NCBI RefSeq assembly: GCF_900101095.1
Contig: NZ_FNFM01000002.1
Location: 434,001 to 498,000, forward strand
Source: Actinopolyspora mzabensis
GTDB lineage: Bacteria; Actinomycetota; Actinomycetes; Mycobacteriales; Pseudonocardiaceae
Length of the DNA: 64,000 nucleotides
Reading direction: 5' to 3'
The position numbers and the translations under genes were made by a program. Below the pieces are notes generated by a model. That model made no database searches. It saw nothing but the letters and a program-made list of their open reading frames with translations, and was not told the origin of the DNA. Position 1 is the first letter of the stretch. Every line of letters starts with the position of its first letter. Shown here piece by piece: positions 1 to 18,718 of this stretch.

Positions 1-117
1 GCCACCGGGGCCCGGGGTGTCTCGGCGGTTGTCGGGGGTTGGCCGAGTGCACGGTTCCGGGCCGGTCTGGGCTGGAGAGATGGATCGTGGGGGCGGACGC
101 TGGCGAGTAGTTGGTGG
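1..117. other. left edge, no supported gene
   Basis: This stretch lies beyond the stop codon of the first minus-strand gene. A minus-strand GTG near position 55 opens a proline-rich reading frame that runs off the window, but it has no good ribosome binding site and no recognisable motif. I see nothing here that I can call. Confidence 0.3.
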
Positions 118-531
118 CTAGAGGCGATGGAGCCCGTTGAGGACGCGGCGCATGAGTGCCAGCTCGGGATGCTCTGTCCCGCTGGGATCGGTGGCGGGTT
201 CAGGTGCCGTGGTGCTGGTCGTCACGGTGGGAAGCGGTGCTGCTGGTTGCGCCGGAATCGGTTTCGGGAGCACCGGGGCCGGTGGGTCGAGGTGGAACAG
301 GTGCGGATGCTCGTCGGGGTCGCACAACGGCCAGCCGATCAGCTCGGTGGTGGGGCGTTCGTCGCGGACATGGTGCTCCAGCCGCAGTGCGGCCAGCCGT
401 CTGGCGGCCGGGCCGCTGCCGCCCGCGTGGCGGGGCCGGTAACTCGCCCGGTTGCCCCAGCCGCCCAGCACGATCGCCGTGGCGGCCAGCACGATGGCGG
501 TGGTCAGCAGCATCGCCGGATGGGTGCTCAC
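118..531 (-). CDS. hypothetical single-pass membrane protein
   Basis: I do not recognise this 137-residue protein. Residues about 6-26 form one hydrophobic segment (AMLLTTAIVLAATAIVLGG), followed by a basic stretch and a long Pro/Thr/Ala-rich tail, so it is probably an N-terminally anchored membrane protein. The GTG start overlaps the TGA of the preceding gene as GTGA, and it is the last of three small minus-strand genes that overlap in the same way, which argues for one translationally coupled operon. The operon runs divergently from the HTH/DUF397 pair. Sets of small orphan proteins beside such pairs are common in Pseudonocardiaceae. The function is unknown. Confidence 0.6.
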   Translation of the reverse strand: MSTHPAMLLTTAIVLAATAIVLGGWGNRASYRPRHAGGSGPAARRLAALRLEHHVRDERPTTELIGWPLCDPDEHPHLFHLDPPAPVLPKPIPAQPAAPLPTVTTSTTAPEPATDPSGTEHPELALMRRVLNGLHRL

Positions 532-779
532 TCCCCATCACCCCGCCTGCGGAACTCGTCCGGGTCGATCGAACTCGATTCCGGCGGATGGCCGCCGCCG
601 AAGGCCAGTCCGGCGGCGTAGTCACGCAGCTCGTCGGAGAGCCGCTGCAATATTCCGGCGAGTTCGGCGCACTGCCTGGGGGTGGCCTGCCGCGCCGGGA
701 TGTCATACGAGGCCTGTTCCAGCTTCCACTGCTCGTGGGCCAGCCACATGCCCAACCTGCCCGCATAACTGGTCACCAC
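528..779 (-). CDS. hypothetical small protein, operon member
   Basis: An 83-residue soluble protein of unknown function. The middle part (residues about 10-55) is predicted helical, with a motif like LAGILQRLSDELRDYAAGL, and the C-terminus is charged and disordered. Tandem GTG codons lie at the start. The second one overlaps the upstream stop as GTGA, so initiation at either is possible, and a GGGGGTGAG sequence precedes them. The overlaps on both sides place it in the middle of a three-gene operon. No catalytic motif is visible. Confidence 0.6.
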   Translation of the reverse strand: MVTSYAGRLGMWLAHEQWKLEQASYDIPARQATPRQCAELAGILQRLSDELRDYAAGLAFGGGHPPESSSIDPDEFRRRGDGE

Positions 780-997
780 GACTCACCCCCAGTCTGAACA
801 GCCGAGGTGAGCACATCCCGCAGGTGGGCAGCCTGATCCACCGTCCACACCGTCCGGTGGAACACCGTCGGCGTCTCGATCCGAATCACCTCCGGCGACC
901 ACCGCGAGATCCACACCAACAACGACGACGACCACCCCGACTCGTTGCCACACCACACCCGCACACCCGGATGACGGACCTCGTAATTACCTGGCAT
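773..997 (-). CDS. hypothetical small protein, first gene of operon
   Basis: A 74-residue protein with several Trp residues (VWCGNESGWSSSLLVW, then ISRWSPEVIRIETP), giving the look of a small beta-rich domain. I do not recognise it. The ATG start was chosen because GAGGAGG lies 8 bases upstream; a TTG immediately before it is an alternative. It is the first gene of the three-gene minus-strand operon and shares a short intergenic region of about 120 bases with the divergent HTH regulator, which may control both sides. Confidence 0.6.
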   Translation of the reverse strand: MPGNYEVRHPGVRVWCGNESGWSSSLLVWISRWSPEVIRIETPTVFHRTVWTVDQAAHLRDVLTSAVQTGGESW

Positions 998-1119
998 CAA
1001 TGACCTCCTCGCAATGCTGTATCGCTGTATCGCAATCCAGAGTGGTGGATTGAGTTACGTTGGTGCAATAGCGCGATCGAGTGATGATCTTCGAGGCCGA
1101 TATCATCTACGGTTGGTTT

Positions 1120-1968
1120 ATGAACCGATCCAAACCTGGCAGTCCCAAAGCACGCTCGCTGGCGGCTGAACTGCGTAAACTTCGCCAAGATGCCGATGTC
1201 GGCGTGCGCGAACTGGCTCGCAGGATCGGAACATCACACGGTTGGGTAACCAGGACCGAATCGGGCAGCCGCTCGATCAGCGTTGCGGACGTGACCAGCA
1301 TCCTGGCTGCCTTGGAGATCTCCAGCGAGGACCGTGAACGTCTGGTCGACATGGCCAGGGAAGCGGATCAGCCGGACTGGCTGCGTCCCGGCATTCCCGG
1401 AGTCCGGGAAGAGCTGGTGACGCTGATCGAGTACGAGCGCACGGCTACCCATTTCGTCGAAGCCGCCCCACTGTTGATCCCCGGCATCCTGCAGACCGCC
1501 GACTACGCCCGGGCGATCATGTCCGGTCTTCCGGCAGGTGAACGTGAGGCCAAAGTGGGGATGCGAGCCGCCAGGCGCGATGTACTCACCAAGGTGCAGG
1601 CTCCGGTCTTCGAGGCGTTCATCCTGGAGCACGTCCTGCGTGATTCGGTATGCGATGCGTCAGCGCACGCCGATCAGCTGCGGCACCTGCTCAAGATGGC
1701 CGAGCTGCCGAACGTCTCGATTCGGGCGCTTCCCAAAAACTTGGGATGGACACACCTGCACAGCGGCCACTTCATCCACTTCGAGTTCGGCGACGCGGCA
1801 CCGATCGTGCATTTGGAGACGCTCGGTTCCGGTGTATTCCTTTCCTCACCCGGAGCTATCTCCAATTACACGGATGCCATGGGTAGCCTCCGACAGGCAG
1901 CGATGACCGAACAGGAGACAGCTGAGTTCATCACTTCCATCATGGAGCGACTGGAGGAGAGCACATGA
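1120..1968 (+). CDS. XRE-family HTH regulator with DUF5753 domain
   Basis: This 282-residue protein has an N-terminal helix-turn-helix (residues about 8-62; ELARRIGTSHGWVTRTESG fits a Cro/CI recognition helix) followed by a DUF5753 sensor-like domain (about 85-270; YERTATHFVEAAPLLIPGIL and LQTADYARAIM are typical). Such proteins are abundant in Streptomyces and Pseudonocardiaceae and usually pair with a DUF397 protein, with which some are known to act as a regulator module. The start is the internal ATG at MNRSKPG; a longer GTG/ATG start 13 codons upstream would add residues not typical of the family. The stop overlaps the DUF397 start as ATGA, so the two are coupled. Confidence 0.9.
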   Translation: MNRSKPGSPKARSLAAELRKLRQDADVGVRELARRIGTSHGWVTRTESGSRSISVADVTSILAALEISSEDRERLVDMAREADQPDWLRPGIPGVREELVTLIEYERTATHFVEAAPLLIPGILQTADYARAIMSGLPAGEREAKVGMRAARRDVLTKVQAPVFEAFILEHVLRDSVCDASAHADQLRHLLKMAELPNVSIRALPKNLGWTHLHSGHFIHFEFGDAAPIVHLETLGSGVFLSSPGAISNYTDAMGSLRQAAMTEQETAEFITSIMERLEEST

Positions 1969-2156
1969 CGGCATCCCCCGAAGGCTGGCGCAAAGCCAGC
2001 TACTCGTCCCGCGAAACCGCTTGCGTCGAAATCGGCCGCACCCACGACGGCGCCGCCGTCCGCGACACCAAGGACCGCGCCGCCGGGTACTTCACCACCA
2101 CCGAGCAGCAGTGGGCCACGTTCATCAACGCGGTGAAGAACAACCACTTCGACTGA
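1965..2156 (+). CDS. DUF397 protein, partner of the HTH regulator
   Basis: A 63-residue DUF397 protein. The family pattern is clear: W-RKASYSS near residue 8, CVEIG at about residue 20, AAVRDTKDRAAGYF in the middle, and the conserved W and F of QQWATFI near the C-terminus. DUF397 proteins are small partners of XRE/DUF5753 regulators and are generally co-translated with them, as here (ATGA overlap). A strong terminator follows. A degenerate copy of the 3' end of this gene lies about 1.5 kb downstream (3581-3673). Confidence 0.9.
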   Translation: MTASPEGWRKASYSSRETACVEIGRTHDGAAVRDTKDRAAGYFTTTEQQWATFINAVKNNHFD

Positions 2157-2175
2157 ACCCCAGCGAACAAACACA

Positions 2176-2208
2176 GCGCCTCCGGAACAGCACTCCGGAG
2201 GCGCTTTT
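2176..2208 (+). terminator. intrinsic terminator after DUF397
   Basis: An 11-bp perfect stem (GCGCCTCCGGA / TCCGGAGGCGC) with a 7-base loop is followed by TTTT, 20 bases after the DUF397 stop. It lies directly beside the trailer end of the first CRISPR array, which is read from the other strand. A near-identical copy occurs at 3692-3720. Confidence 0.85.
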
Positions 2209-2212
2209 GCTG

Positions 2213-2301
2213 TCTCAGACCCCGCGTGCGCGGGGTCTACCTGGACTGGCAGACGCGAGGGGGTGGCTGATGGGGTCCATCCCCGCGTGCGCGGGGCCTA
2301 C
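2213..2301 (-). CRISPR. mini CRISPR array 1 (2 repeats, 1 spacer), type I-E-like
   Basis: Two 28-base repeats (2213-2240 and 2274-2301) flank one 33-base spacer (2241-2273), a 61-base period. The core CCCCGCGTGCGCGGGG is palindromic, and on the minus strand the repeat begins GTAGGCCCC and ends GGGGATGGACC, the form of actinobacterial type I-E repeats. The left repeat is degenerate in its outer half, as the trailer-end repeat usually is, so the array reads on the minus strand with its leader to the right. No cas gene lies in this window. Confidence 0.75.
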
Positions 2302-2377
2302 ACTCACTGCGCTGGGATTCTAGCGCGGCGAAGGCGCTGTGAACACCACTCCGCCGCACCTCATCGGACAGAACCGA
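2302..2377 (-). promoter_or_regulatory. CRISPR leader, copy 1
   Basis: These 76 bases separate the last repeat of array 1 from the stop of the lipoprotein gene. They match the 76 bases beside array 2 (3875-3950) at about 69 positions, far above the surrounding sequence, which fits a conserved leader. The role as leader is inferred from position, conservation and repeat decay at the opposite end. Confidence 0.6.
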
Positions 2378-2974
2378 TTACTCCGCGGCAGGCCACGAGG
2401 GCAACGACAGCCGGAGAGCCTTCTTCGCCAACGCACACGGGTCGGCGCTTCCGGTATCGTCCGACGGGACAGTCGTGAACGACTGCACGAGCTGATCCTC
2501 CTGCACGGCGACGTGCATCCCGCACGACCCGGACTCCATCGGCTTGACCCTGTTGGATCGCACTCCCGGATGCCCGTGCACCGTTATCCGTTCGAAGTCG
2601 ACGTACTCCGACTCGTGCTCGTAGTAGGTATCCAGCGAACGCCCCTGAACGGGAGACAACGAAACCGAAGTGAAGTCTTCCGCGCTCTCCCAAACACAAG
2701 CTGGGGCAGAGCCGGATTCGACTTCCTCCTTCTCCCCTTGAGGCTGAACCCCGAGTTGTACAGCGGCTTCCTTGGGCAACAGCTCGCACACCCCCACAGC
2801 CGTCGCATCCTTGGGATTCGCGATCGCCGAACCGGACGACGACTCCGACGAGGACGTACTCTCGCCCGTGGTGGTTCCCGCCGAGTCCCCGTTCTGCTCG
2901 GCCGAACCGGACGAACACCCGGCGAGCACCACGCTCAGCAACACACCGCCCGCGATGACACCACTGCGACGCAT
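2378..2974 (-). CDS. DUF3558-like lipoprotein
   Basis: A 198-residue secreted lipoprotein. The signal peptide (MRRSGVIAGGVLLSVVLAGC) ends in a lipobox LAGC with the lipidated Cys at residue 20. A Ser/Thr/Gly-rich linker (about 21-55) follows, then a domain with CELLP, CVWE, CGMHVAV and DPCALAK motifs whose cysteines fit the DUF3558 family, common in Pseudonocardiaceae. The ATG at 2974 was chosen because it puts the lipobox at the usual distance. A GTG 7 codons upstream, overlapping the end of the neighbour gene, is possible. It is expressed with the coiled-coil gene just upstream. The exact function is unknown. Confidence 0.8.
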   Translation of the reverse strand: MRRSGVIAGGVLLSVVLAGCSSGSAEQNGDSAGTTTGESTSSSESSSGSAIANPKDATAVGVCELLPKEAAVQLGVQPQGEKEEVESGSAPACVWESAEDFTSVSLSPVQGRSLDTYYEHESEYVDFERITVHGHPGVRSNRVKPMESGSCGMHVAVQEDQLVQSFTTVPSDDTGSADPCALAKKALRLSLPSWPAAE

Positions 2975-2999
2975 CCCGCTCCGCAAGCTACCCACGATC

Positions 3000-3332
3000 T
3001 CAGCTCCGCCTCTCGATATCCCGCTGCGCCACCGAAGCGTTGTCATCGGCCAGCCCGTACTCGGCCAGCACCGCGTCGTACGCCTCGATCTTCTCTTCCA
3101 GTATTTTCCGAATATCGCGAGCAGCGCTACGCACTGAACCCTCTTCTCCGGTTATGCGCTGCTGAAACGCTTTACGAGCCTCGTCGGTCGTGTTGTCCAG
3201 CGCGGTAAGCTCACCCGGATCAGTGGACTGAGCCTTCCGCTCCAATTCCCGGGCCTCTTCCCGAGCCGCTTCGAGGTCCTTGCGCGCCTCGCGGAGCTTG
3301 TCGTAATCGACACCGAAGCCGTCCTGCCCCAT
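3000..3332 (-). CDS. small coiled-coil protein, ESX/WXG100-like partner of the lipoprotein
   Basis: A 110-residue, charged, almost wholly helical protein. A first helix (about 8-37: LREARKDLEAAREEARELER) and a second (about 50-90) form a helical hairpin typical of ESX-secreted WXG100-superfamily or T7SS-associated proteins, but no clear WXG motif is present, so the assignment is structural inference. GGGGAG lies 9 bases before the chosen ATG. The stop lies 25 bases from the lipoprotein start, so the two form an operon. Pairing of such proteins with DUF3558 lipoproteins recurs in Pseudonocardiaceae. Confidence 0.65.
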   Translation of the reverse strand: MGQDGFGVDYDKLREARKDLEAAREEARELERKAQSTDPGELTALDNTTDEARKAFQQRITGEEGSVRSAARDIRKILEEKIEAYDAVLAEYGLADDNASVAQRDIERRS

Positions 3333-3580
3333 GTGCTGTCTCCCCACTCCAACTCACAGGTCTCACACCCGGCACCGCATCCTGCCGGATCAGCACACAC
3401 CGTGTCAGCGGAACGACTGAATTGTCACGAGGACGCGGGACACCTCGACTCACCCCGTTGATCACACTGCGGGCAAACGAACGCCCCGGTGCATCGACAG
3501 TCACCCAAACCGCTGTCATCGACCCAAGCGATCACAACGCATCACCCAACCATCAGCCACAGCGATGAGCAACCACGCGC
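3333..3580. other. intergenic region upstream of the ESX-like gene
   Basis: This region holds the presumed minus-strand promoter of the coiled-coil/lipoprotein operon. Apart from short GC-poor patches (for example around 3520-3560) I see no gene, repeat or operator. Confidence 0.4.
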
Positions 3581-3673
3581 ACAACCAAGGACCGCCCAGC
3601 CCGACACCTCACTACCACCGGGCGGCGGTGATCCACCTTCATCAACGCGGTGAATAACAACCACTTCGGCTGA
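3581..3673 (+). pseudogene. decayed 3' end of a DUF397 gene
   Basis: Bases 3581-3673 align with the end of the intact DUF397 gene (about 2064-2156): CCAAGGACCG, then ACCACCG, then TTCATCAACGCGGTGAA and CAACCACTTC-G-CTGA are shared. In the frame that ends FINAV-NNHF-stop, the conserved Trp codon TGG has become TGA (3629-3631), and no upstream start or full-length frame exists. It is therefore a remnant, followed by a copy of the DUF397 terminator and the second CRISPR array. Confidence 0.7.
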
Positions 3674-3691
3674 ACCCCAGCAGCAACACAA

Positions 3692-3720
3692 CGCCTCCGG
3701 AACGCTCCGGAGGCGCTTTT
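3692..3720 (+). terminator. terminator copy 2 after the DUF397 remnant
   Basis: The stem CGCCTCCGGA / TCCGGAGGCG followed by TTTT is a shortened copy of the terminator at 2176-2208. It again lies directly beside the trailer end of a CRISPR array. Confidence 0.8.
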
Positions 3721-3724
3721 GCTG

Positions 3725-3874
3725 TCTCAGCCCCCGCGTGCGCGGGGCCTACTTGTCCATGCAGGAAGGCGAGCGTGCCCACGTGGGTCCATCCCCGCGT
3801 GCGCGGGGCCTACCGCATCCCTCCGCAGACCTACATGGCCGCGTGGGGTCCATCCCCGCGTGCGCGGGGCCTAC
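3725..3874 (-). CRISPR. mini CRISPR array 2 (3 repeats, 2 spacers), type I-E-like
   Basis: Repeats lie at 3725-3752, 3786-3813 and 3847-3874, with two 33-base spacers (3753-3785 and 3814-3846) and a constant 61-base period. The two right-hand repeats are identical to the intact repeat of array 1. The leftmost is degenerate outside the CCCCGCGTGCGCGGGG core, marking the trailer end. The spacers differ from each other and from the spacer of array 1. The array reads on the minus strand, leader to the right. No cas gene is present here, so any activity needs Cas proteins encoded elsewhere. Confidence 0.8.
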
Positions 3875-3950
3875 ACTCACTGCGCTGGGATTCTAGCGCG
3901 GCGAAGATGCTGTGAACACTACTCCGTCACACCTCATCGGACAGAGCCGA
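3875..3950 (-). promoter_or_regulatory. CRISPR leader, copy 2
   Basis: This copy of the presumed leader differs from the one at 2302-2377 at about seven positions. It fills most of the gap to the stop codon of the next minus-strand gene at 3963, the same layout as at array 1. Confidence 0.6.
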
Positions 3951-3962
3951 CTCGCTCTCGGG

Positions 3963-4244
3963 CTACAGGTCCGGAATATCGTTCAAGTCGGCGCTCACCA
4001 GTACCTTCCCGTCCGGCGTTTCGAGCTCATGCGGAGCGAGCTTGGAGACACCGACGCCCTGAAGCAAACCGAAGTTCACCAGGTAGGTATCACCATCGGA
4101 GTCCATAGCGGGCACAACGGCTTTCGACTGCATGAGCTTGAGTACCTTCTCGGTGACTTGCTCCGGAGTTCCCCCGAAGAACTCGATGGTCACCTGAAGT
4201 CCCGGGGCACGTACGTAGACGGGCTGGAGTTGTTCCGCTGCCAC
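3963..4244 (-). CDS. hypothetical protein
   Basis: A 93-residue protein I do not recognise. It appears alpha/beta (LQVTIEFFGGTPEQVTEKVLKL, then TYLVNFGLL and GKVLVSADLNDIPDL) with no signal peptide or membrane segment. The GTG at 4244 was chosen because GAGAGG lies 10 bases upstream and the residues before it are low-quality Arg/Gly-rich sequence; the frame is open further upstream. Its 3' end abuts the leader of CRISPR array 2, just as the lipoprotein gene abuts array 1. Confidence 0.6.
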   Translation of the reverse strand: MAAEQLQPVYVRAPGLQVTIEFFGGTPEQVTEKVLKLMQSKAVVPAMDSDGDTYLVNFGLLQGVGVSKLAPHELETPDGKVLVSADLNDIPDL

Positions 4245-4542
4245 TGAGTTACGACCTCTCAACTCGGTTCGGTGACCGTGAGCTCCGCCAGCGGTTCCAC
4301 CAACCGATCGCCACACCTCGGCGACGAGATACCGCCGACACATCTCGGCAGTCCTTCGACACAGAAGTCCGATGTGGACGACATGTCGAAGTCAACCGAC
4401 AAAGCCATCGCCTTCGTCCGGCGCGAGATGCGTGAACTCCCGGCACGATCATGACTCGGACATCATGGCACGGATACGAGCCCGTGCGGGACGAGCGCGG
4501 GCAAGGAAACACGCCAAGTCGCAGCGATGGAGGGCGGCAACC
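4245..4542. other. intergenic, no firm gene
   Basis: The region holds the promoter of the minus-strand gene ending at 3963. A 23-codon plus-strand frame (4384-4454, MSKSTDKAIAFVRREMREL) ends just before the antitoxin-like gene but lacks a good ribosome binding site, so I do not call it. Confidence 0.35.
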
Positions 4543-4707
4543 GTGCACGAATCGGGCGGCATCCCGGCGGAGCAACGCTGGTTCTGGACGCCGGAGTGGC
4601 AATCGGGCGAAGCCGAAGCCACTCAACAGATCGCCGATGGCGAGTGCTCAGAAGCGTTCACCAGCGCGGCAGAGCTGTTCGCCGCCATCGACGACGAGTC
4701 GGCGTGA
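4543..4707 (+). CDS. small protein with AbrB-type antitoxin C-terminal tail
   Basis: A 54-residue protein whose sequence RWFWTPEWQSGEAEATQQIA, followed by an acidic helix ending LFAAIDDE, resembles the C-terminal tail found after the DNA-binding domain of many actinobacterial AbrB/MazE-type antitoxins, the part that normally contacts the toxin. The DNA-binding domain itself is absent. GGAGGG lies 8 bases before the GTG start, which favours this short form; an in-frame ATG at 4465 adds only an Arg-rich stretch. No toxin gene adjoins it. It could be a truncated antitoxin or a stand-alone anti-toxin peptide. Confidence 0.5.
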   Translation: MHESGGIPAEQRWFWTPEWQSGEAEATQQIADGECSEAFTSAAELFAAIDDESA

Positions 4708-4877
4708 GACCGGGCGGACAGACCACCGAAACCGACAACCGCGAACGGTGCCAAGCGTACCTACCGAGAAAGGACCCGGTCGCCGCGATACCACGGGGTT
4801 CGAGCAGCGCCGGGTCGGTAACGGGGTCCGGGGTATTCGGGGAGCGCGGTCGAGTGTGGACTGTCCGACCGGGCGTC

Positions 4878-4893
4878 GATTTCCCAAGAAATC
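4878..4893. repeat. GATTTC palindrome family, divergent copy
   Basis: GATTTCCCAAGAAATC is a degenerate member of the dispersed palindrome family, lying 48 bases beyond the siderophore gene stop. Confidence 0.5.
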
Positions 4894-4940
4894 GCGGAGC
4901 GGTGGGGCAGCGGTGGGGCAGCGGCGGCTCGGCGACGACC

Positions 4941-5966
4941 TCAGCAGCGGCCCTGGCGCCAGTAGCCCATGAACGCCACGGAACCGCGCGGCACGCCGTA
5001 GCCCTGCACGGTCATCCGGCGCAGCCGCTTGATGACACCGGCCTCACCCGCGAGCCAGCCGTAGAGCTCCCCGCCCGCGATGTCGAGACTCTCGTCGAAG
5101 GCCGGGTCCTGGTGCTGACTACCCGGGATCTCCCAGAGCAGGTAGTTGTCGACGTCGACGTCCTCCAGCGCGGCGATCGCCTCGCTCGCGGCGGGGCAAC
5201 CGTCCACCTTCGGCCCGGCGCACAGCTCACCCAGCGCGGTTTCGAGCGCCTGTTCCAGCAGCTCACCGTGCTCGCTGCCGGCGATGTCGCGCGGCAGCCA
5301 ACGGATCTCGACACCGCTCGGCACGTGGTCCCACGCCTGAACATCGGCCTCGCTGGGCACCTCCAGGCAGGCGATACCCCGCGAATCGGCGGGCAGTGAT
5401 TCCAGGATGGCCGCCACCGCCGGGATCGCGGTCTCGTCCCCCGCCAGCAGCAACCGCCGCGCGGTCGCGGGCGGGCACCACTCGCAACCCCACATCCTGC
5501 CGGAACCGGGACGGTCGGGCCCGAGGATCGCCACCCGGTCACCGATGCGGGCGCCGTTCGCCCAGGCGGAGGCCGGGCCGCTGGCTTCCTCGCCGGAACC
5601 GTGCAGCACGAAGTCGATGTCCATCTCCGCGCGCTCGGGGCGGAACGACCGAACCGTGTAGGTCCGCATGGTCGGCCGGATCTCCTCCGGCATGGCCTGC
5701 CAGGTGGGGTACCAGTCGTGACCGTCCGGCACGTCGGCCACCGTCCGGCCGGGCTTGGGCAGCATCAGCTTGATGCGCTGGTCGACCCCACCGGCACCGA
5801 AGGAACGCAGCCCCTCGCCCGCGAAGGTGAGCCGCACGAAATTGGGACTGAGCCGCTGCCTGCCTGCCACCTCGACGGTGTAGACCCGGGACTCGGGCCT
5901 GGCGGTCGCTTCGGGTCGTGTGCTTGCGGGTGCCGCGGCACGTACCGTCCCGGTAGCAGTGGCCAT
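4941..5966 (-). CDS. siderophore-interacting protein, ViuB-type FAD reductase
   Basis: A 341-residue cytoplasmic flavoprotein of the siderophore-interacting (SIP/ViuB) family, which binds FAD and reduces ferric siderophore so that iron is released. The N-terminal FAD barrel spans about 35-155 (RLSPNFVRLTFAG, then the FAD motif RTYTVRSFRPE), and the C-terminal NAD(P)H-like domain spans about 170-335 (LLLAGDETAIPAVAAILE and GYWRQGR at the end). The ATG was chosen because GGGAGG lies 6 bases upstream. Two iron boxes sit between this gene and the divergent one, so repression by an IdeR/DmdR regulator under iron sufficiency is likely. Confidence 0.9.
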   Translation of the reverse strand: MATATGTVRAAAPASTRPEATARPESRVYTVEVAGRQRLSPNFVRLTFAGEGLRSFGAGGVDQRIKLMLPKPGRTVADVPDGHDWYPTWQAMPEEIRPTMRTYTVRSFRPERAEMDIDFVLHGSGEEASGPASAWANGARIGDRVAILGPDRPGSGRMWGCEWCPPATARRLLLAGDETAIPAVAAILESLPADSRGIACLEVPSEADVQAWDHVPSGVEIRWLPRDIAGSEHGELLEQALETALGELCAGPKVDGCPAASEAIAALEDVDVDNYLLWEIPGSQHQDPAFDESLDIAGGELYGWLAGEAGVIKRLRRMTVQGYGVPRGSVAFMGYWRQGRC

Positions 5967-6000
5967 ACCGTTCCTCCCAATCACGAGATACGGTGCTTCG

Positions 6001-6017
6001 GTGAGGCTAGCCTGAGT
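6001..6017. promoter_or_regulatory. iron box 1 (IdeR/DmdR-like site)
   Basis: GTGAGGCTAGCCTGAGT is an imperfect palindrome close to the actinobacterial iron-box consensus built on TTAGGTTAGGCTAACCTAA. It lies 35 bases upstream of the siderophore-interacting gene start. Confidence 0.65.
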
Positions 6018-6025
6018 TTCTGCAG

Positions 6026-6042
6026 TAAGGTTAGCCTACGCT
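6026..6042. promoter_or_regulatory. iron box 2 (IdeR/DmdR-like site)
   Basis: TAAGGTTAGCCTACGCT matches the left half and centre of the same iron-box consensus, 25 bases from the first site. Paired sites of this kind fit cooperative dimer binding by DtxR-family repressors. Confidence 0.65.
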
Positions 6043-6209
6043 CAGCCAATTGACGACAGGCGATCGAGCGTGTCGCACGACACATCTCGACAGCACCGCC
6101 CCGGAAGCGGAACGCCCCGAACCGCGTTCTTCCCGGAACCGCGCCGGCCCCGGCCGCGTCCCAACCGCCGAAGCCCACCGACGAGACCCAACCGCACGGG
6201 AGCGCCCTG

Positions 6210-6908
6210 ATGTACGTGGAGGACACCGGTTCGGGAGACGGCGACATCCGGATCGAAATCGCCGATTCCGAGTACACCGCCGAGGCCAACTACGACCTCA
6301 ACGACGACGGCGTGGACGAGACCGTCGCCGTGCTGACCGACGACGGTTTCCTCGCCTACACCGACTCGGATGCCGACGGCGAGGCCGACGTGATGCGCGG
6401 CATCGACGAGCGGGGCAACGTGGTCGAGCAGGCGCGCTACGACGAGACGACCGGCGAGTGGACCAGGGAGAAACCCGACGAATCACCGGTCCAGGAACCA
6501 AACGGCGAGGACGAGGGCCGATCGATGGTCGTGGACACCCCGCAGGGGGACCGGGAGGTCGGCCCGCCCACCGAGGACACCAACAACGACGGCAGGGCCG
6601 ACACCGCGATCGTCGACACCGAGCACGGCCAGATGATGGTCACCGACGCCGACGGGGACGGCTCCGCCGACCAGATGGTCGAGATCAGCGATTCCGGCGA
6701 GGTGACCGTCGCCAAGCACACCGGCGACGGCGAGTGGACCGTGGTCGAGCAGGGCCGGGTCGACGGCCAGGGGCAGTACGCGACGCAGCAGCGCCCCTTC
6801 GAGGTCAGCGGCACCGAGGACTGGCTCTGGGACGGCGAGGAGCGGGATGGCACCGGCCGCGGCGAGGCCTCGGGCACCGACCCGGCCGACGACTCGTTCT
6901 GGACCTGA
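6210..6908 (+). CDS. acidic protein with four DxDxDG-type calcium-binding-like motifs
   Basis: A 232-residue very acidic protein without signal peptide or membrane segment. Four DxDxDG-like loops occur: DLNDDGVDE (about 29-37), DSDADGEAD (about 52-60), DTNNDGRAD (about 123-131) and DADGDGSAD (about 146-154), each followed by a short beta-like stretch. They fall in two pairs, so the protein looks like an internal duplication of about 95 residues. It resembles a Pseudonocardiaceae family annotated as DUF6802, but that name is from memory. Calcium binding is inferred from the motifs alone. GGAGCG precedes the ATG. It is divergent from the siderophore gene and may share its iron boxes. Confidence 0.7.
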   Translation: MYVEDTGSGDGDIRIEIADSEYTAEANYDLNDDGVDETVAVLTDDGFLAYTDSDADGEADVMRGIDERGNVVEQARYDETTGEWTREKPDESPVQEPNGEDEGRSMVVDTPQGDREVGPPTEDTNNDGRADTAIVDTEHGQMMVTDADGDGSADQMVEISDSGEVTVAKHTGDGEWTVVEQGRVDGQGQYATQQRPFEVSGTEDWLWDGEERDGTGRGEASGTDPADDSFWT

Positions 6909-7336
6909 CCCCCGCGCGCTGAATGCGCCACGGATTCCCGAAACGGAACCCGAAGCCATTAACACGAATGGCGGCAATTCGGATCAAAATGTGCCCCGGA
7001 ACACATCCGATTTCCGCGGGCTCGCTCGGGAATAATCATCCGAACGAGCGAGTCCGCGAGGCTCGACGACGGAAAACATCGATCCAGCTCCCCTCGGAAC
7101 AGTCGGATTTTCGCGACACCCCGCCATCTGAATCGATTCCCTTATCGTTCTTGTGAGGGAAGTGACAGGACTGATCTCCGCCAACCCCGGCACCTCCGGT
7201 TAGCCTCGGTACATCCCCAAATGCAGCTCCGTCCGGATTTCCGGGCGGAGCGAAGCATTTTGAAAGCTCCGCCGGCCCACGCGTCGGCGAGAGGAGAGAA
7301 TCCGGGCTGTGGCGCCCAGTCAGGAGACACGACGCG
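6909..7336. other. 428-base promoter region of pckG
   Basis: No gene or repeat is seen. The last 30 bases include a ribosome binding region (CAGGAGACACGACGCG) before the pckG ATG. I could not identify a specific operator. Confidence 0.5.
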
Positions 7337-9166
7337 ATGACCGCTTTGACCATCCCCGGTCTCGACCAGGCACCCGTGAATCACGAACGCCTGTTGTCCT
7401 GGGTACGTGAGGTGGCGGAGCTGACCACGCCCGAGCAAGTCGTATGGTGCGACGGATCGCAGCAGGAATGGGAACGCCTGACCAACCGACTGGTCGAGGC
7501 CGGTACCTTCAAGCGTCTGGACGAGTCGAAGAAGCCCGAGTCGTTCTGGACGGCCTCAGATCCCACCGACGTCGCCCGGGTCGAGGAACGAACCTTCATC
7601 TGCTCCCGCGAGAAGAAGGACGCCGGGGTCACCAACAACTGGATGGACCCCGACCAGATGAAGGCCACCATGACCGAGCTCTACCGGGGCTGCATGCGTG
7701 GCCGCACGATGTACGTGGTGCCCTTCTGCATGGGGCCGGTGGAGGCCGAGCCGCCCAGGCTCGGCGTGGAGATCACCGACTCCGAGTACGTCGTGGTGTC
7801 CATGCACATCATGACCCGCATGGGTGACCGCGTGCTGGAGCGGTTCTCCGAGAGCGAGGACGTGGAGTTCGTGCCCGCACTGCACTCGGTGGGTGCGCCG
7901 CTGGAACCCGGCCAGCAGGACTCCACCTGGCCGTGCAACGAGATCAAGTACATCACGCACTTCCCCGAGGAGCGGCTGATCTGGAGCTTCGGCTCCGGCT
8001 ACGGGGGCAACGCGCTGCTGGGCAAGAAGTGCTACTCGCTGCGCATCGCCTCCGCGATGGCGCGTGACGAGGGCTGGCTCGCCGAGCACATGCTGATCCT
8101 GAAGCTGATCTCGCCCGAGAACAAGGTCTACTACGTAGCAGCGGCCTTCCCCTCGGCGTGCGGCAAGACCAACCTGGCGATGCTGGAGCCGACCATCCCG
8201 GGCTGGCGCGTGGAGACCCTCGGCGACGACATCGCCTGGATGCGGTTCGGCGAGGACGGCAGGCTCTACGCGGTCAACCCGGAGGCGGGCTTCTTCGGTG
8301 TCGCGCCGGGCACCAACTGGAAGACCAACCCGAACGCGATGCGCACCATCGAGCGGGGCAACTCCATCTTCACCAACGTCGCGCTGACCGACGACGACGA
8401 CGTGTGGTGGGAAGAGATGGAGGGGCAGCCGGAGCACCTGACCGACTGGAAGCGGCAGGACTGGACGCCCGACTCGGACGAGAAGGCCGCCCACCCGAAC
8501 TCCCGCTACTGCACGCCGATGTCGCAGTGCCCGATCCTGGCCCCCGAGTGGGACGACCCGCAGGGCGTGCCGATCTCGGCGATCCTGTTCGGCGGCAGGC
8601 GCAAGACCACGATCCCGCTGGTCAACGAGGCCTTCGACTGGCAGCACGGGGTCTTCATGGGCGCCACGCTGTCCTCGGAGAAGACGGCCGCCGCGGCGGG
8701 CAAGGTCGGCGAGGTGCGCCGCGACCCGATGGCGATGCTGCCGTTCATCGGCTACAACGTCGGCGACTACTTCCAGCACTGGGTGAACATGGGCAAGGAG
8801 GCCGACGCCTCCAAGATGCCCAGCATCTACTACGTCAACTGGTTCCGCAGGGACCCGTCGGGCAAGAAGATCGTCTGGCCCGGCTTCGGCGAGAACTGCC
8901 GGGTGCTGAAGTGGATCGTGGACCGGCTGGAGGGCAACGCCGCCGCCGAGGAGACCGCGATCGGCCGCGTGCCCACGGCGGAGCAGCTCGACCTCAGCGG
9001 GCTCGAAGCCACCCGCGAGGAGATCGAGCAGTCCCTGGAGGTGAGCCTGCCGGAGTGGCGCGAGGAGCTGCCGCTGATCGAGGAGTGGTTCGACACGATC
9101 GGCGAGGACCTGCCCACCTCGATGCGCGACGAGCTGGAGGCGCTCAAGCAGCGCATCGGTGAGTGA
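7337..9166 (+). CDS. pckG: phosphoenolpyruvate carboxykinase (GTP)
   Basis: A full-length 609-residue GTP-dependent PEP carboxykinase, which interconverts oxaloacetate and phosphoenolpyruvate at the entry to gluconeogenesis. The P-loop [13 protein letters not shown] carries the reactive Cys at residue 275 and the Lys at 277. The Mn/substrate region TLGDDIAWM and the arginine-containing segment [12 protein letters not shown] are intact, and length and order match the family. CAGGAGA precedes the ATG. It appears monocistronic, flanked by a promoter region of over 400 bases and a strong hairpin downstream. Confidence 0.97.
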
Positions 9167-9189
9167 CGCTTCGGCGAGGTTTCGCGAAT

Positions 9190-9236
9190 CCGAGGGGTGT
9201 CGAGATTCCGTTTTCCGGAATGTCGACACCCCTCGG
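9190..9236 (+). terminator. long hairpin after pckG
   Basis: A 14-bp arm CCGAGGGGTGTCGA (9190-9203) pairs with 9223-9236. Inside it, after one G-G mismatch, ATTCCG pairs with CGGAAT around a TTTTC loop, giving about 20 bp of stem. It starts 24 bases after the pckG stop and probably ends transcription or protects the 3' end, although no T-run follows. Confidence 0.75.
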
Positions 9237-9557
9237 TTCACGCAGCGCATTGTGTGAATCGAATTCATTCGAAAAACGCCCCCGAAAGCGTGGTTCGACA
9301 CGCGTCGGTAAATGCACCGAAAACCCCCGATCGTGGGTAATCACGGATATTTTCGCGAACTCACGGCTGAACAGAACGCGCCGGAGCCGCCCCGAGCGGC
9401 ACAAACGTCGGTGAACGATCCCTCGAACCGTTCGCACTGCGTAGGAACACTCAGGGTCACCCGCGTAGGAATTGATTGGCCGGAACCGGACGAACCGGTG
9501 CACACTCGGAAACGTCCGAGAAAAACCGGAAAGCCTGCACACCCCGGGAGGTGTGTC
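9237..9557. other. intergenic region
   Basis: A comparatively AT-rich stretch near 9240-9360 contains no reading frame with a plausible start and no recognisable element. Its end carries the promoter and ribosome binding site of the next small gene. Confidence 0.4.
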
Positions 9558-9842
9558 ATGGTAGATCTGGCGATGATCGCACTGGTTCTGGTCGCGCTGC
9601 TGGCCGTGTGGCTGTTCCTGCGGGGAGCCGACAGCGTGGGCAGCCGCCGGAGCGCCGGGTTGGCCCGTTATCGAAGCCGCGTCGCTCCCCCAGCACCGAA
9701 CCACCCGACCACCAGCGAGGCGGGACGCTCCGAGGACTCGTACGGCCCGGCCGCGCGCGGCGGCGTCACGCACGGCCCGGAAGCGTATCGCTCGATGTTG
9801 TCACTGCGCAGGAAGCGGGCCGAGAACCCCGAGAGCGACTGA
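9558..9842 (+). CDS. small single-pass membrane protein
   Basis: A 94-residue protein with one N-terminal transmembrane helix (residues about 4-22, MIALVLVALLAVWLFLRG) and a basic, probably cytoplasmic tail. GGGAGG lies 7 bases before the ATG. The frame is open far upstream, but that part has no family-like sequence. No domain is recognised. It is convergent with the amino acid transporter operon. Confidence 0.65.
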   Translation: MVDLAMIALVLVALLAVWLFLRGADSVGSRRSAGLARYRSRVAPPAPNHPTTSEAGRSEDSYGPAARGGVTHGPEAYRSMLSLRRKRAENPESD

Positions 9843-9884
9843 TCGGAAAAACCGACCACGTCGTGCTGCCCGTGCTGGGCCGTG

Positions 9885-10667
9885 CTACCCGTGGTCGGAG
9901 TCCGACTCGACGGCCGAGACCGCGTGCGTCGGGTTGAGCACCCGCGCCAGGAAGTGGCGGGTGCGCTCCCGCTGCGGGTTGCCGATCACGTCGGCGGGCC
10001 TGCCCTGCTCGACGATGGCCCCGCCGTCCATGAACAGCACCCGGTCGGCGACCTCGCGGGCGAACTGCATCTCGTGGGTGACCACCAGCATGGTCATGCC
10101 CTCGTCAGCCAACCCGCGCATCACGTCCAGCACGTCGCCGACCAGCTCCGGGTCCAGCGCGGAGGTCGGTTCGTCGAACAGCATCACGTCCGGGTCCATC
10201 GACAGCGAGCGCGCGATGCCGACCCGCTGCTGCTGGCCGCCGGACAGCTGGGCGGGGGTGGCGTTCTCCTTGGCGGCCAGCCCGACCCTGCGCAGATTCT
10301 CGCGGGCGGTCTCCTCGGCCTTGACCCGGTCACGCCCGAGCACCTTGCGCTGCGCGACGGTGAGGTTGCGCAGCACCGAGAGGTGCGAGAACAGGTTGAA
10401 CTGCTGGAAGACCATGCCGATGCGGGTGCGCGCCGCGTCGATGTCGGCGTCCGGGTCGGTCAGCTCGACCCCGTCGACCACGATCCTGCCCGAGGTGGGT
10501 TGTTCGAGCAGGTTCACGCAGCGCAGGAAGGTGGACTTGCCGGACCCGGAGGGGCCGATGACGCAGACCACCTCGCCCGCCTCGATCCGCTGATCCACCC
10601 CGCTGAGGACCTCCAGCTCGCCGAAGGACTTGCGCAGTTCGGAGATCTCGATCTTTACGTCGCTCAT
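9885..10667 (-). CDS. polar amino acid ABC transporter, ATP-binding protein
   Basis: A 260-residue ABC ATPase of the GlnQ/GluA type that powers import of polar amino acids. Walker A is GPSGSGKST (about 39-47), the Q-loop is in [14 protein letters not shown], the signature is LSGGQQQR (about 143-150), Walker B is [12 protein letters not shown] (about 161-172), and the H-loop is VVTHEMQF. It is the last gene of a minus-strand operon (binding protein, permease, ATPase), 21 bases from the permease. The substrate is probably glutamate, glutamine or a related amino acid. Confidence 0.93.
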
Positions 10668-12420: not shown

Positions 12421-12796
12421 AGTGTCACTCCTCCTCGACGGGAATCCGGATGCTGGGATCCTGCCATCATCCGGGGCCGTTACAAACAGCTTCGCGTGTT
12501 TCGATCACGTCAAATCCACTCGGAAGCGGGACAGCCGCACCGCGATCGATCACGCAACGCACACCCACCGCAGCCCCCATCGAGCCGGAAACCGGACGAT
12601 ATCGAGCGCAACGGCCGCGTAAGCGGAACACACGATACCGTTACGCTGATCGGGTGAAGCATCGCGGGTCGGCGAGCATCACCAAGAGTGACCGGAAGAA
12701 ATTCCCGTCGAACCGATCGAGCAGCCGATCACCGACCCGCCGGTGACCGACGCACGGACGGCCGGGCGCGCCACGGGCGGGTTCCTCGGTGACCGA
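12421..12796. other. intergenic promoter region of the ABC operon
   Basis: The 376 bases hold the promoter for the binding-protein gene on the minus strand, and end at the 3' side of the peptidase gene. I see no gene, repeat or clear operator. Confidence 0.4.
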
Positions 12797-15876: not shown

Positions 15877-16432
15877 GCCGGGGATGCTAGATCACACCCG
15901 CCACATCCGAGGTCGTTTCGGAGGATCCGGTGCCTCGCTCCCCGGCCGAGACCGGTCCCGCGCCGGAGGCGAAGCCCGGCCGGAGCCCGGCCGAAGCCCG
16001 GCCGAAGCCCGGCCGAAGCCCGACCGTGCACCGTGCCACGGTCCGCAACCCGCGAGTAACCGAGCACCCACCGAGTGTACTCACCATCGATTCAGCACGA
16101 GCCACGACAACGCTGACCAGTGCCGGAACCAACCGGGAAAAAATCGGTTATACAACTGTCACAACGCCATCCATCGGAGATCCACCCCTCTGATGACCTG
16201 CGAATTCGCTTGATCCAACCGCGAGCTACGGTGCGCCGGACAAGGTTTGCAGGCGGCATCGATCTCTGTGTCAGGACTCACGGAAGTGGCCGTTGTCATG
16301 CCAGGATGGCGAGGAGCGATCCAACGACCCCGATCGGATGACCCGAGACCCACCTGGTCGACGGCACCGTTAGGGGTAACCGGCCTCAGCCGCCACAAGC
16401 GGTAACGGCCGGGGTGAGACTAGGAGATCCAC
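15877..16432. other. intergenic region between GPP34 and the oxoacid dehydrogenase operon
   Basis: These 556 bases carry divergent promoters and a short tandem repeat (15972-16026). The last part before the E1 alpha gene has TAGGAGATCCAC as ribosome binding site. No other gene is supported. Confidence 0.5.
15972..16026. repeat. 11-bp tandem repeat, five units
   Basis: Five head-to-tail units of AAGCCCGGCCG (the second begins with G, the last has one change) lie upstream of the GPP34 paralogue 2 start. Such GC-rich minisatellites are prone to copy-number change. Confidence 0.8.
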
Positions 16433-17689
16433 ATGTCCCCCGAACACTGGACGCGACCGAGCCGACCCGACGATCGCGATCGACTCGCGGACACCGCGGT
16501 GCCTGCCGCAACCTCAGCAACACCAACGAGGGAGCAGGTGATCGCCGGTTTGCGTGCGACCAGCGAAGGCGGAGCTGACCTCGTTCAGCTCTTGACGCCG
16601 GAGGGTCAGCGGGTATCGCACCCGGACTTCGACATCGACATCACCGACGAGCAGCTACGCGGCATGTACCGCGACATGGTGCTGGTGCGGCGTGCCGACC
16701 GCGAGGGCAACGCACTCCAACGCCAGGGCCAACTCGGAATCTGGGTTCCGCTGCTGGGTCAGGAGGCCGCGCAGATAGGCGCGGGTCGCGCCATGCGACC
16801 GCAGGACATGGCCTTCCCGAGCTACCGCGAGCACGGAGTCGCCTGGTGCCGGGGCATCGACCCCACCGAGCTGCTGGGCATCTTCCGCGGCACGGACCAC
16901 GGCAGCTGGGACCCGAACGAAACCGGCATGAGCCTGTACACCATCGTCATCGGCAACCAGTGCGTGAACGCCACCGGCTACGCGATGGGGCAGAAGTTCG
17001 ATGGCAAGGTCGGCAACTCGGGTGACGACCCCGCCTCGAACGAGGCAACCATGGTCTTCTTCGGCGACGGCGCCACCAGTCAGGGTGACGTGCACGAGGG
17101 CATGGTCTGGGCCTCGGTCTACGACGCGCCGGTGGTCTTCTTCTGCCAGAACAACCAGTGGGCGATCTCCGAGCCGACCGAACGGCAGAGCCGGGTACCG
17201 CTCTACGAACGCGCAAAGGGATACGGCTTCCCCGGCATCCGGGTCGACGGCAACGACGTGCTCGCCAGCCTCGCCGTCTCCCAGTGGGCCATGAACGAGG
17301 CCAGGCAGGGCAACGGGCCGCTGCTCATCGAGGCGTTCACCTACCGCATGGACGCGCACACCACCTCCGACGACGCCACGCGCTACCGGCTGGACGACGA
17401 GCTGGAGGCGTGGAAGCTCAAGGACCCGATCGAACGGTTGCGGGCGCACCTGCTCCGGGAGGAGATCGCCGACCAGGAGTTCTTCGACGGGGTGGATTCC
17501 GAGGCAGACGAACTGGCCGCGAGGTTCCGCGAGTTCTGCGTGAACATGCCGGAACCGCCGCCGGAACGGATGTTCTCCGCCGTCTACGCGGAGGAGAGCC
17601 CCGTGGTGGCGGCGCAGCGGGAGGACTACCTGAACTACCTTGCCGGCTTCGCCGACTCCGGCCACGACACCGAGGGGAGTGTTCGCTGA
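16433..17689 (+). CDS. bkdA: 2-oxoacid dehydrogenase E1 alpha (branched-chain or pyruvate)
   Basis: A 418-residue thiamine diphosphate-dependent E1 alpha subunit. The ThDP motif GDGATSQGDVHEG (about 211-223) leads to the distal NNQ of VVFFCQNNQW, and the phosphorylation-loop-like region YRMDAHTTSDDATRYR (about 304-319) is intact. It decarboxylates a 2-oxoacid and passes the acyl group to E2. Actinobacterial complexes of this type are often annotated pdhABC, but the M. tuberculosis counterpart acts on branched-chain oxoacids, so the substrate is uncertain. TAGGAG precedes the ATG. The stop overlaps the E1 beta start as TGATG. Confidence 0.92.
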   Translation: MSPEHWTRPSRPDDRDRLADTAVPAATSATPTREQVIAGLRATSEGGADLVQLLTPEGQRVSHPDFDIDITDEQLRGMYRDMVLVRRADREGNALQRQGQLGIWVPLLGQEAAQIGAGRAMRPQDMAFPSYREHGVAWCRGIDPTELLGIFRGTDHGSWDPNETGMSLYTIVIGNQCVNATGYAMGQKFDGKVGNSGDDPASNEATMVFFGDGATSQGDVHEGMVWASVYDAPVVFFCQNNQWAISEPTERQSRVPLYERAKGYGFPGIRVDGNDVLASLAVSQWAMNEARQGNGPLLIEAFTYRMDAHTTSDDATRYRLDDELEAWKLKDPIERLRAHLLREEIADQEFFDGVDSEADELAARFREFCVNMPEPPPERMFSAVYAEESPVVAAQREDYLNYLAGFADSGHDTEGSVR

Positions 17690-18708
17690 TGGCCGCGCCC
17701 ACCATGGAATCGACCGGTTCGAGCACGACACCGACCCAGACGATCACGATCGCCAAGGGCCTGAACAACGCGCTGCGCAACGCCATGGAGCGCGACCCGA
17801 AGGTCCTGGTCATGGGCGAGGACGTGGGCAAGCTCGGCGGTGTTTTCCGCGTCACCGACGGGCTGCAGAAGGACTTCGGCGAACACCGGGTGCTCGACAC
17901 GCCGCTGGCCGAGTCCGGGATCATCGGCACGGCCATCGGCCTGGCGATGCGCGGGTTCCGCCCGGTATGCGAGATCCAGTTCGACGGGTTCATCTTCCCC
18001 GGCTTCGACCAGATCGTCTCGCAGCTGTCCAAGATGCACTACCGCACCCAGGGCAAGGTCAAGGTTCCGCTGGTCATCCGGGTTCCCTTCGGCGGCGGTA
18101 TCGGGGCGGTGGAGCACCACTCCGAGTCTCCGGAGTCGCTGTTCGCCCACGTGGCGGGCCTGAAGGTGGTCTCCTGCTCCAACCCGGTGGACGCCTACTG
18201 GATGCTGCAGCAGGCCATCGACTCCGACGATCCGGTGCTGTTCTTCGAGCCGAAGCGGCGGTACTGGGAGAAGGCCGAGCTCGACCCCACGGCCGAGCAC
18301 CTGCCGATGATCAGCTCCGCCGTGCTGCGCACCGGATCCGACGTCACGGTCGCCACCTACGGGCCGACGGTCAAGACCTGCATGGAAGCCGCGACCGCGG
18401 CCGAGGAGGACGGCAACGACGTCGAGGTCGTGGACCTGCGTTCGCTCTCACCGCTGGACCTGGGCCCGGTGGCCGAGTCGGTCCGGCGCACCGGACGGCT
18501 GGTCGTGGTCAGCGAGTCGCCGCCGGAATCCTCGGTCACCTCGGAGGTGGCCACCCGGATCCAGCAGGAGTGCTTCTACTCGCTGGAGGCCCCCGTGCTG
18601 CGGGTGAACGGATTCGACACGCCGTACCCACCGAGCAAGCTGGAGGAGGGCTACCTGCCCGACCTCGACCGGGTACTCGATGCCGTCGACCGTTCACTGG
18701 CCTACTGA
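17689..18708 (+). CDS. bkdB: 2-oxoacid dehydrogenase E1 beta
   Basis: A 339-residue transketolase-like beta subunit that completes the E1 active site. The catalytic Glu lies in LVMGEDVGKLGGVFR (about 40-54), followed by TPLAESGIIGTAIGLAMRG, and the C-terminal transketolase domain carries LRSLSPLD. The true start is the ATG overlapping the E1 alpha stop; the open frame upstream of it is only a shadow of the alpha gene. It is translationally coupled and part of a three-gene operon. Confidence 0.93.
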   Translation: MAAPTMESTGSSTTPTQTITIAKGLNNALRNAMERDPKVLVMGEDVGKLGGVFRVTDGLQKDFGEHRVLDTPLAESGIIGTAIGLAMRGFRPVCEIQFDGFIFPGFDQIVSQLSKMHYRTQGKVKVPLVIRVPFGGGIGAVEHHSESPESLFAHVAGLKVVSCSNPVDAYWMLQQAIDSDDPVLFFEPKRRYWEKAELDPTAEHLPMISSAVLRTGSDVTVATYGPTVKTCMEAATAAEEDGNDVEVVDLRSLSPLDLGPVAESVRRTGRLVVVSESPPESSVTSEVATRIQQECFYSLEAPVLRVNGFDTPYPPSKLEEGYLPDLDRVLDAVDRSLAY

Positions 18709-18718
18709 GGGGGCAGGC

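Follow-up and report, generated by a model that had tools for sequence, protein, structure and literature searches.

Two mini CRISPR arrays of Actinopolyspora mzabensis as probable members of a dispersed set of separately filled leader-repeat sites

Array anatomy and flanking genes

The window, a stretch of 64,000 nucleotides from the genome of Actinopolyspora mzabensis (G000), contains two type I-E-like CRISPR arrays on the minus strand, the first with one spacer and the second with two. A 21-nt core of the repeat occurred five times in the window, at positions 2220, 2281, 3732, 3793 and 3854, compared with an average of 0.02 in shuffled sequences. In the window as well as in a catalogue of arrays from the genus, the unit consisted of a 29-nt repeat and a 32-nt spacer with a period of 61 bp, and 134 of the 148 catalogued spacers were 32 nt long. 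An earlier, sequence-only reading of this DNA had proposed two real mini arrays of the I-E type, which is borne out by the five core copies and the period; its division of the unit into a 28-base repeat and a 33-base spacer was off by one. The canonical repeat of 29 nt was GTAGGCCCCGCGCACGCGGGGATGGACCC, and the repeat of the dispersed arrays described below is also denoted GTAGGCCCC.

Array 1 (2212-2301) comprises two repeats and one spacer, all on the minus strand. Its leader, with a conserved core of about 55 bp (2302-2356), is followed by the leader-proximal repeat of 29 nt (2273-2301), the 32-nt spacer (2241-2272) and the terminal, leader-distal repeat (2212-2240). Array 2 (3724-3874), also on the minus strand, comprises three repeats and two spacers. 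Read from its leader (conserved core of about 55 bp, 3875-3929), it consists of the leader-proximal repeat (3846-3874), the newer spacer (3814-3845), the middle repeat (3785-3813), the older, leader-distal spacer of 32 nt (3753-3784) and the terminal repeat (3724-3752). Both leader cores were delimited by the conservation profile of 41 distinct leaders of one form, termed A-type, and by genus-wide matches. The leader-distal repeats of both arrays were degenerate in their 3' part, as had been noticed before. A palindromic repeat of about 28-29 nt, spacers of 32-33 nt, a constant period, and a leader at one end with a degenerate repeat at the opposite end are the marks of type I-E arrays, and all of them were present. 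The leader-side stretches of the two arrays (repeat plus leader) were 94% identical over 107 nt, in line with the earlier figure of about 90 percent for a leader of ~76 bases, and the trailer sides were 82% identical over 109 nt. No Rfam match was obtained in positions 1-10000 of the window, and no sigma70-type promoter consensus was found between 2100 and 4000. The motif TAGAAT near position -20 of the A-type leader looks like a -10 element.

The plus strand in front of array 1 carries an HTH_31/DUF5753 regulator gene (1120-1968) and an intact DUF397 gene (1965-2156), both assigned with Pfam, and the latter is convergent with the array. A terminator-like hairpin (2175-2205, found on both strands) lies between the DUF397 gene and array 1. 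A second one (3692-3715, plus strand) lies at the trailer end of array 2, beside the remnant of a second DUF397 3' end (3584-3681, plus strand), which matched the DUF397 profile and was 85% identical to 2067-2164. The trailer ends of the arrays face the hairpins of the intact gene and of the remnant, respectively. The leaders adjoin the 3' ends of two minus-strand genes, namely a DUF3558 gene (2378-3046, Pfam) at leader 1 and an ORF of unknown family (3963-4343) at leader 2, in which the scanned part (3966-4241) gave no Pfam match. Both the DUF397 terminators at the trailer ends and the position of the leaders had been recognised from the letters alone.

The window pair appears to stem from the duplication of a DUF397-array cassette. 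This had also been proposed before and is refined here in one respect: as the same neighbourhood of the sister genome G009 likewise contained two arrays, one of five repeats and one of a single repeat, both following a DUF397 gene, the duplication was probably not recent. One array was present in the compared 5-6 kb of this neighbourhood in G004 and G007. DUF397, array and DUF3558 were found in line in G008, and in the same order in G003, where DUF397 and array are about 1 kb apart. Either the two-array arrangement predates this lineage, or it has repeatedly formed or collapsed via recombination between cassettes.

A convergent DUF397 profile match began 53-114 bp from the trailer end in 26 of the 74 catalogued arrays, and each genome contained 34-64 DUF397 profile matches. 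By our own estimate (which takes some 50 genes in 5 Mb, an interval of 250 bp and a single orientation), about 0.1 such adjacencies would be expected by chance if the arrays were independent, an expectation that overstates the contrast with 26 of 74 because paralogues and orthologues are among them. A frequency this far above chance could mean that the elements are 3'-end hairpins or small regulatory RNAs for their neighbours, the DUF397 cassettes among them. However, 48 of the 74 arrays had no such DUF397 neighbour within 250 bp, such a role gives no reason for exact 61-bp units whose spacers change, and cassette duplication explains the association. A function in host regulation is therefore considered very unlikely.

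Shared sites and their spacers in the genus

The repeat core (two mismatches allowed) was present in 16 of the 61 genomes searched and in nine of the ten genomes of the genus, A. mzabensis being included in both counts; it was absent from G006. In a named genome collection, which may omit records of A. mzabensis or of very near genomes, the leader-repeat junction pattern was found in 13 stretches, all from Actinopolyspora righensis, A. xinjiangensis and A. alba. The catalogue was built from the lists of core matches, a procedure which misses arrays with more diverged repeats and left a few doubtful entries. It comprised 74 arrays of 1-11 repeats in 48 fetched stretches, of which 15 were single-repeat and 25 two-repeat arrays, with 148 spacers (145 distinct). 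Each genome had its arrays at 3 to 7 places, separated by more than 20 kb.

The A-type leaders, 41 distinct ones from 42 loci in eight genomes (some loci belonging to the same group), carried mostly 1-2 bits per position over the last 53 bp or so, and conservation faded to background between about -53 and -70. In the same 42 loci, the terminal repeats were conserved over 22 nt, with a sharp drop from nucleotide 23. Mismatches at nucleotides 22-28 averaged 3.32 in terminal repeats (n=59), 2.73 in single repeats (n=15) and 0.55 in inner repeats (n=148). Judged by these profiles, the conserved unit is a sharply bounded "seed", in which some 55 bp of leader are joined to the first 22 nt of the repeat. 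Eight of the 15 single-repeat loci had a near-consensus end of the A-type leader, and these would be empty seeds, unless they are arrays that have shrunk to a single repeat. Other leader forms preceded the same repeat in G001, G002 and G005 and at some sites elsewhere. The mean leader score of A. mzabensis (74.7) was inside the range of G003, G004, G007, G008 and G009 (65.4-81.5); the single leader of G002 scored 32 and the two of G005 scored 23.

The single-repeat entry G003:607127 is probably a false positive, as it lies in an apparent coding region and has no leader. Other single-repeat entries were located beside more diverged repeats (G003:4285439) or had no recognised leader, and all doubtful ones were kept in the counts. 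At the former position (4285439-4285762 of G003; L062:10439-10760), identical tandem repeat-spacer units with shortened repeats lie between two array parts, which suggests a recent duplication of units. A seemingly leaderless array of G008 (C21:90924) was rejected as such: a transposase-like gene (L145:14970-16250), in our reading IS30-like, splits the leader-proximal repeat and parts the leader from the array.

When 2.5 kb on either side of each array were compared, 49 of the 74 arrays could be sorted into 13 groups, each drawn from two or more species, with matches of 500 bp or more on either flank. Paralogous DUF397 cassettes may be mixed in the two largest of these groups, which comprise six species each. 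Both single-repeat and longer arrays were present in seven of the 13 groups. At one site, filled in G004 and G007, leader, repeat and terminator were absent in A. mzabensis and G009; the downstream match extended over only 58 bp, insertion and deletion fit this site alike, and no target duplication was readable.

Spacers common to species were few, and they occurred at grouped sites in leader-distal position. The fourth and last of four spacers in A. mzabensis C15:245600 was the same, base for base, as the single spacer of G004 C4:1980. Similarly, the third of four spacers in G003:870768 matched, apart from one lost base, the first found in G008 C19:90554, and behind it the fourth spacer of the G003 array was also present. 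In these two cross-species cases, located elsewhere than the window arrays, old shared and new different spacers form the pattern expected of growth at the leader end after the species had split.

If insertion at a site copies the repeat already present there, repeat alleles should be site-specific. Mismatches between repeats of the same array were fewer than in shuffled assignments in G004 (0.23 versus 1.00) and G008 (0.74 versus 1.67; p 0.0002 each) and, weakly, in G003 (2.93 versus 3.55; p 0.04). The test was negative in G005 (p 0.20) and in A. mzabensis (3.18 versus 3.15; p 0.47), where a single repeat bearing a 2-nt deletion, compared without gaps, raised the value. It was uninformative in G007 and G009, and G002 has one array only.

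Cas genes of A. mzabensis and its relatives

In the assembly of A. mzabensis (5.0 Mb, 24 contigs, 99.64% complete), 22 matches to the 21-nt core with up to two mismatches could be resolved into seven arrays, which lie on four contigs and hold 17 spacers in total. Several of these repeats were mutated, and one had the 2-nt deletion. The sequence-only reading had held that the lack of any further array or cas gene with this repeat in the genome, together with fixation of the same spacers in distant relatives, would speak for inert repeats. Seven arrays were found, and the leader-proximal spacer of array 2, the one window spacer searched in this way (up to three mismatches, 390 genomes of the family), occurred only at its own place.

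No match to Cse1, Cas1 or Cas7e over the cut-off was obtained anywhere in this genome. Four weak matches to the cas3_core model were all below the cut-off; the same model matched in 14 of 14 control genomes and exceeded the cut-off in six. The search covered these four families, and at the cut-off a complete type I-E system as defined by Cse1, Cas7e, cas3 and Cas1 was not found. The reported absence of cas genes near the arrays thus extends, for the four families, to the whole genome. A cas operon may still be encoded on a plasmid absent from the assembly or in a gap between contigs.

The unmatched cas families, the mutated repeats including the 2-nt deletion, and the degenerate arrays of G001 would all be accounted for if the arrays were plain relics of an old CRISPR-Cas locus, which was broken up and whose arrays were scattered by rearrangement, are decaying and are meaningless today. 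For A. mzabensis alone, and for its present state, this reading comes close to the best one. As an explanation of the arrays it is nevertheless rated as unlikely. The spacers differ at grouped sites, unlike what the break-up of one locus would leave, the leaders of A. mzabensis are about as conserved as those in cas-bearing genomes, and empty seeds with near-consensus leaders are not predicted by the break-up of a single locus.

Cas7e was found in seven of the ten genomes of the genus, at 11 places. At seven of these (L103-L106 and L109-L111) the fetched stretch contained multi-repeat arrays of other repeats, and at L101 one repeat pair was present near Cas7e. No array was detected by periodicity at L102 (G003), L107 (G001) and L108 (G004). 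These three operons all contained cas3, cse1, cas7 and cas6e; both cas5 and cse2 were confirmed in L108, and cas5 also in L102. No Cas1 match was found near them, and no Cas2 among the 10 same-strand ORFs after cas6e. In one of the three genomes this solo operon was the only I-E operon found. G007, G008 and G009 had the dispersed arrays alongside other I-E operons, and G000, G002 and G005 had them without Cas7e. G004 had no Cas1 match anywhere, yet no genome of the genus had more core matches (54), and G001 had a solo operon but only 5 mostly degenerate arrays. A solo I-E operon is a plausible user of the dispersed arrays in trans; as it was present in only three of the nine repeat-bearing genomes, the link is circumstantial.

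The operons L107 and L108 adjoin genes for TraG/TraD-type coupling proteins of conjugation (L107:3865-5703 and 16235-19945; L108:12778-15969; Pfam scan), L107 also adjoins a 1237-aa protein with an AAA_30 domain, and L102 has other neighbours. Both L107 and L108 may be part of conjugative elements which carry a memory-less Cascade. No TnsB/TnsC family names were obtained with Pfam among the 8 neighbouring ORFs of the three operons, and one weak integrase-core match in L108 was below the cut-off. In the gap between cas3 and cse1 all three contained a solitary repeat-like hairpin, GTTAT[CT]TCC[CT]CGCnnnnGCGGGGGTGA (L102:6948-6981; L107, about 12709-12742, minus strand; L108:7381-7414). The hairpin is embedded in a strongly conserved segment, and a GTGCCGTGGC...GCCACGGCAC stem comes after it. 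It differs in sequence from the repeat of the dispersed arrays and bears a possible resemblance to CreR-type self-regulating RNAs.

Adaptation-less I-E operons have been described in Streptomycetaceae, either with an array and TnsB/TnsC or lacking cas3 beside STAND NTPases (Faure 2019 and Shmakov 2018, as cited in PMC12231136). As far as they are described there, they have in common with L102, L107 and L108 that I-E interference genes occur without cas1/cas2, whereas the three operons of this genus have cas3 and no adjacent array.

Spacer targets and interpretation

Matching the window spacers to phage and plasmid sequences had been suggested in the earlier reading, and no protospacer was obtained in this way. 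The three spacers (first 23 nt, every sixth base free) had no match in viral_contigs, and none was found when both arrays were compared with phages. In the latter search the array stretches showed similarity of the repeat type to Saccharomonospora phage PIS 136, with E-values as low as 2e-8. A 37-base match to mycobacteriophage tape-measure genes was among weak rows at E 0.05 or worse and was taken for chance. The best 10 of 86 plasmid records for array 2 resembled, by coverage and identity, repeats of other CRISPR arrays, and no protospacer was among the matches listed. As no protospacers were found, we can only infer a role of the arrays in defence. A figure cited in PMC12231136 is that 99.5% of 2104 actinomycete spacers are without a phage or plasmid match. 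Phage PIS 136 (JX006077.1) contains four I-E-like repeats with a 61-bp period (L169:506-720), partly under a hypothetical-protein gene, and these, to judge from their spacing, are a phage-borne mini array.

Where no cas genes are detected, orphan arrays might also be guards, in which spacers against cas genes exclude a cognate system, as has been described for orphan I-F arrays of E. coli (precedent in PMC8616872). None of the 148 spacers matched outside arrays with up to six mismatches in 167 loci (1.59 Mb with overlaps), which included the 11 I-E cas neighbourhoods L101-L111. At seven mismatches two rows were obtained for the spacers versus one for shuffled spacers. A single row with 4 mismatches ran over a locus end and was discarded as an artefact. 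For the loci searched, guard arrays are thus very improbable.

With a probability of roughly 0.7, the two window arrays are members of a dispersed chromosomal set of seeds, that is, of a CRISPR memory which is served in trans and outlives the turnover of cas operons, and which is now orphaned in A. mzabensis. An ancestral compatible I-E Cas1-Cas2 would have inserted spacers at each seed, and each insertion would have copied the leader-proximal repeat of that site, so that every site grew separately. An I-E Cascade encoded at another place would have used the crRNAs of all sites in trans, with cas operons coming and going in the genus and the seeds persisting. Cas genes formerly present in A. 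mzabensis would have been lost, leaving the window arrays as orphan memory that is possibly transcribed and would be neither processed nor used. The earlier suggestion that the arrays serve Cas proteins encoded elsewhere fits the genus in this respect, but a present activity in A. mzabensis is unsupported, the tested cas families being undetected. The reading builds on the observed anatomy and dispersal of the arrays, their flank grouping with independent spacer content, the polarity in two cases, the unmatched cas families, and the operons of relatives without detected adaptation genes or adjacent arrays. Against it count G004, without a Cas1 match to extend its arrays, and the solo operon of G001 with its few degenerate ones. 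The same holds for the missing protospacers, the presence of the solo operon in three of nine repeat-bearing genomes, the different sequence of its hairpin, the negative allele tests in A. mzabensis and G005, the missing promoter consensus and the possible mixing of paralogous cassettes in the two largest groups.

A further proposal is that the leader-plus-22-nt unit of about 77 bp is itself the spreading element, a portable seed multiplied across the chromosomes of the genus, often behind DUF397. Immunity would then be split between dispersed inherited memory and transient cas operons, and the adaptation-less operons of G001 and G004 would be mobile, memory-less effectors reading the seeds of their host. 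This proposal is doubtful and is put forward tentatively. If the reading of the arrays as a dispersed, trans-served memory is true, CRISPR memory can exist as many inherited, separately filled mini sites uncoupled from cas operons. The natural series from the empty seed over one spacer to many spacers, with cas absent, would bear on how arrays are born. It also poses the questions of how Cas1-Cas2 picks among many leaders and whether orphan memory is re-used once a cas operon arrives.

Overall, I-E arrays located away from cas are already familiar; what is unusual here is their arrangement as many shared, separately filled seeds in a genome where no cas genes were detected. Methanocaldococcus jannaschii has many dispersed arrays with a common leader, and cas genes are present; here the type and the organism are different and no cas was detected. 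Orphan or Cas-distant type I-E arrays are alike in repeat form, spacer length, polarity from leader to terminal repeat and the lack of adjacent cas genes. Unlike these, the present sites are numerous and tiny, have the same flanks across species with different spacers, and some consist of a leader and one repeat only. The Streptomyces linear plasmid pSHK1 carries seven arrays, five of them away from cas (Guo 2011, as cited in PMC12231136). As described there it is likewise an actinomycete I-E case, with the arrays spread on one replicon, whereas the arrays of Actinopolyspora are distributed over several contigs, are common to species and persist even where, as in A. mzabensis, no cas genes were detected. 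Arrays sharing a repeat gain spacers largely regardless of their distance to cas, according to a statistical result of PMC12814883. Dispersed and orphan arrays are thus already known; shared, independently filled seed sites at this scale look new. Neither Actinopolyspora arrays nor shared seed sites appeared in the titles and abstract openings searched, a body of literature with most subscription journals outside its scope.

A related repeat, GTCGTCCCCGCGCACGCGGGG, was present at several distant places in G032, a genome from another genus of the family (L158-L165), and at some of these sites the leader ended like CGCAGGTCAAGAAGT. The dispersal may be wider than Actinopolyspora.
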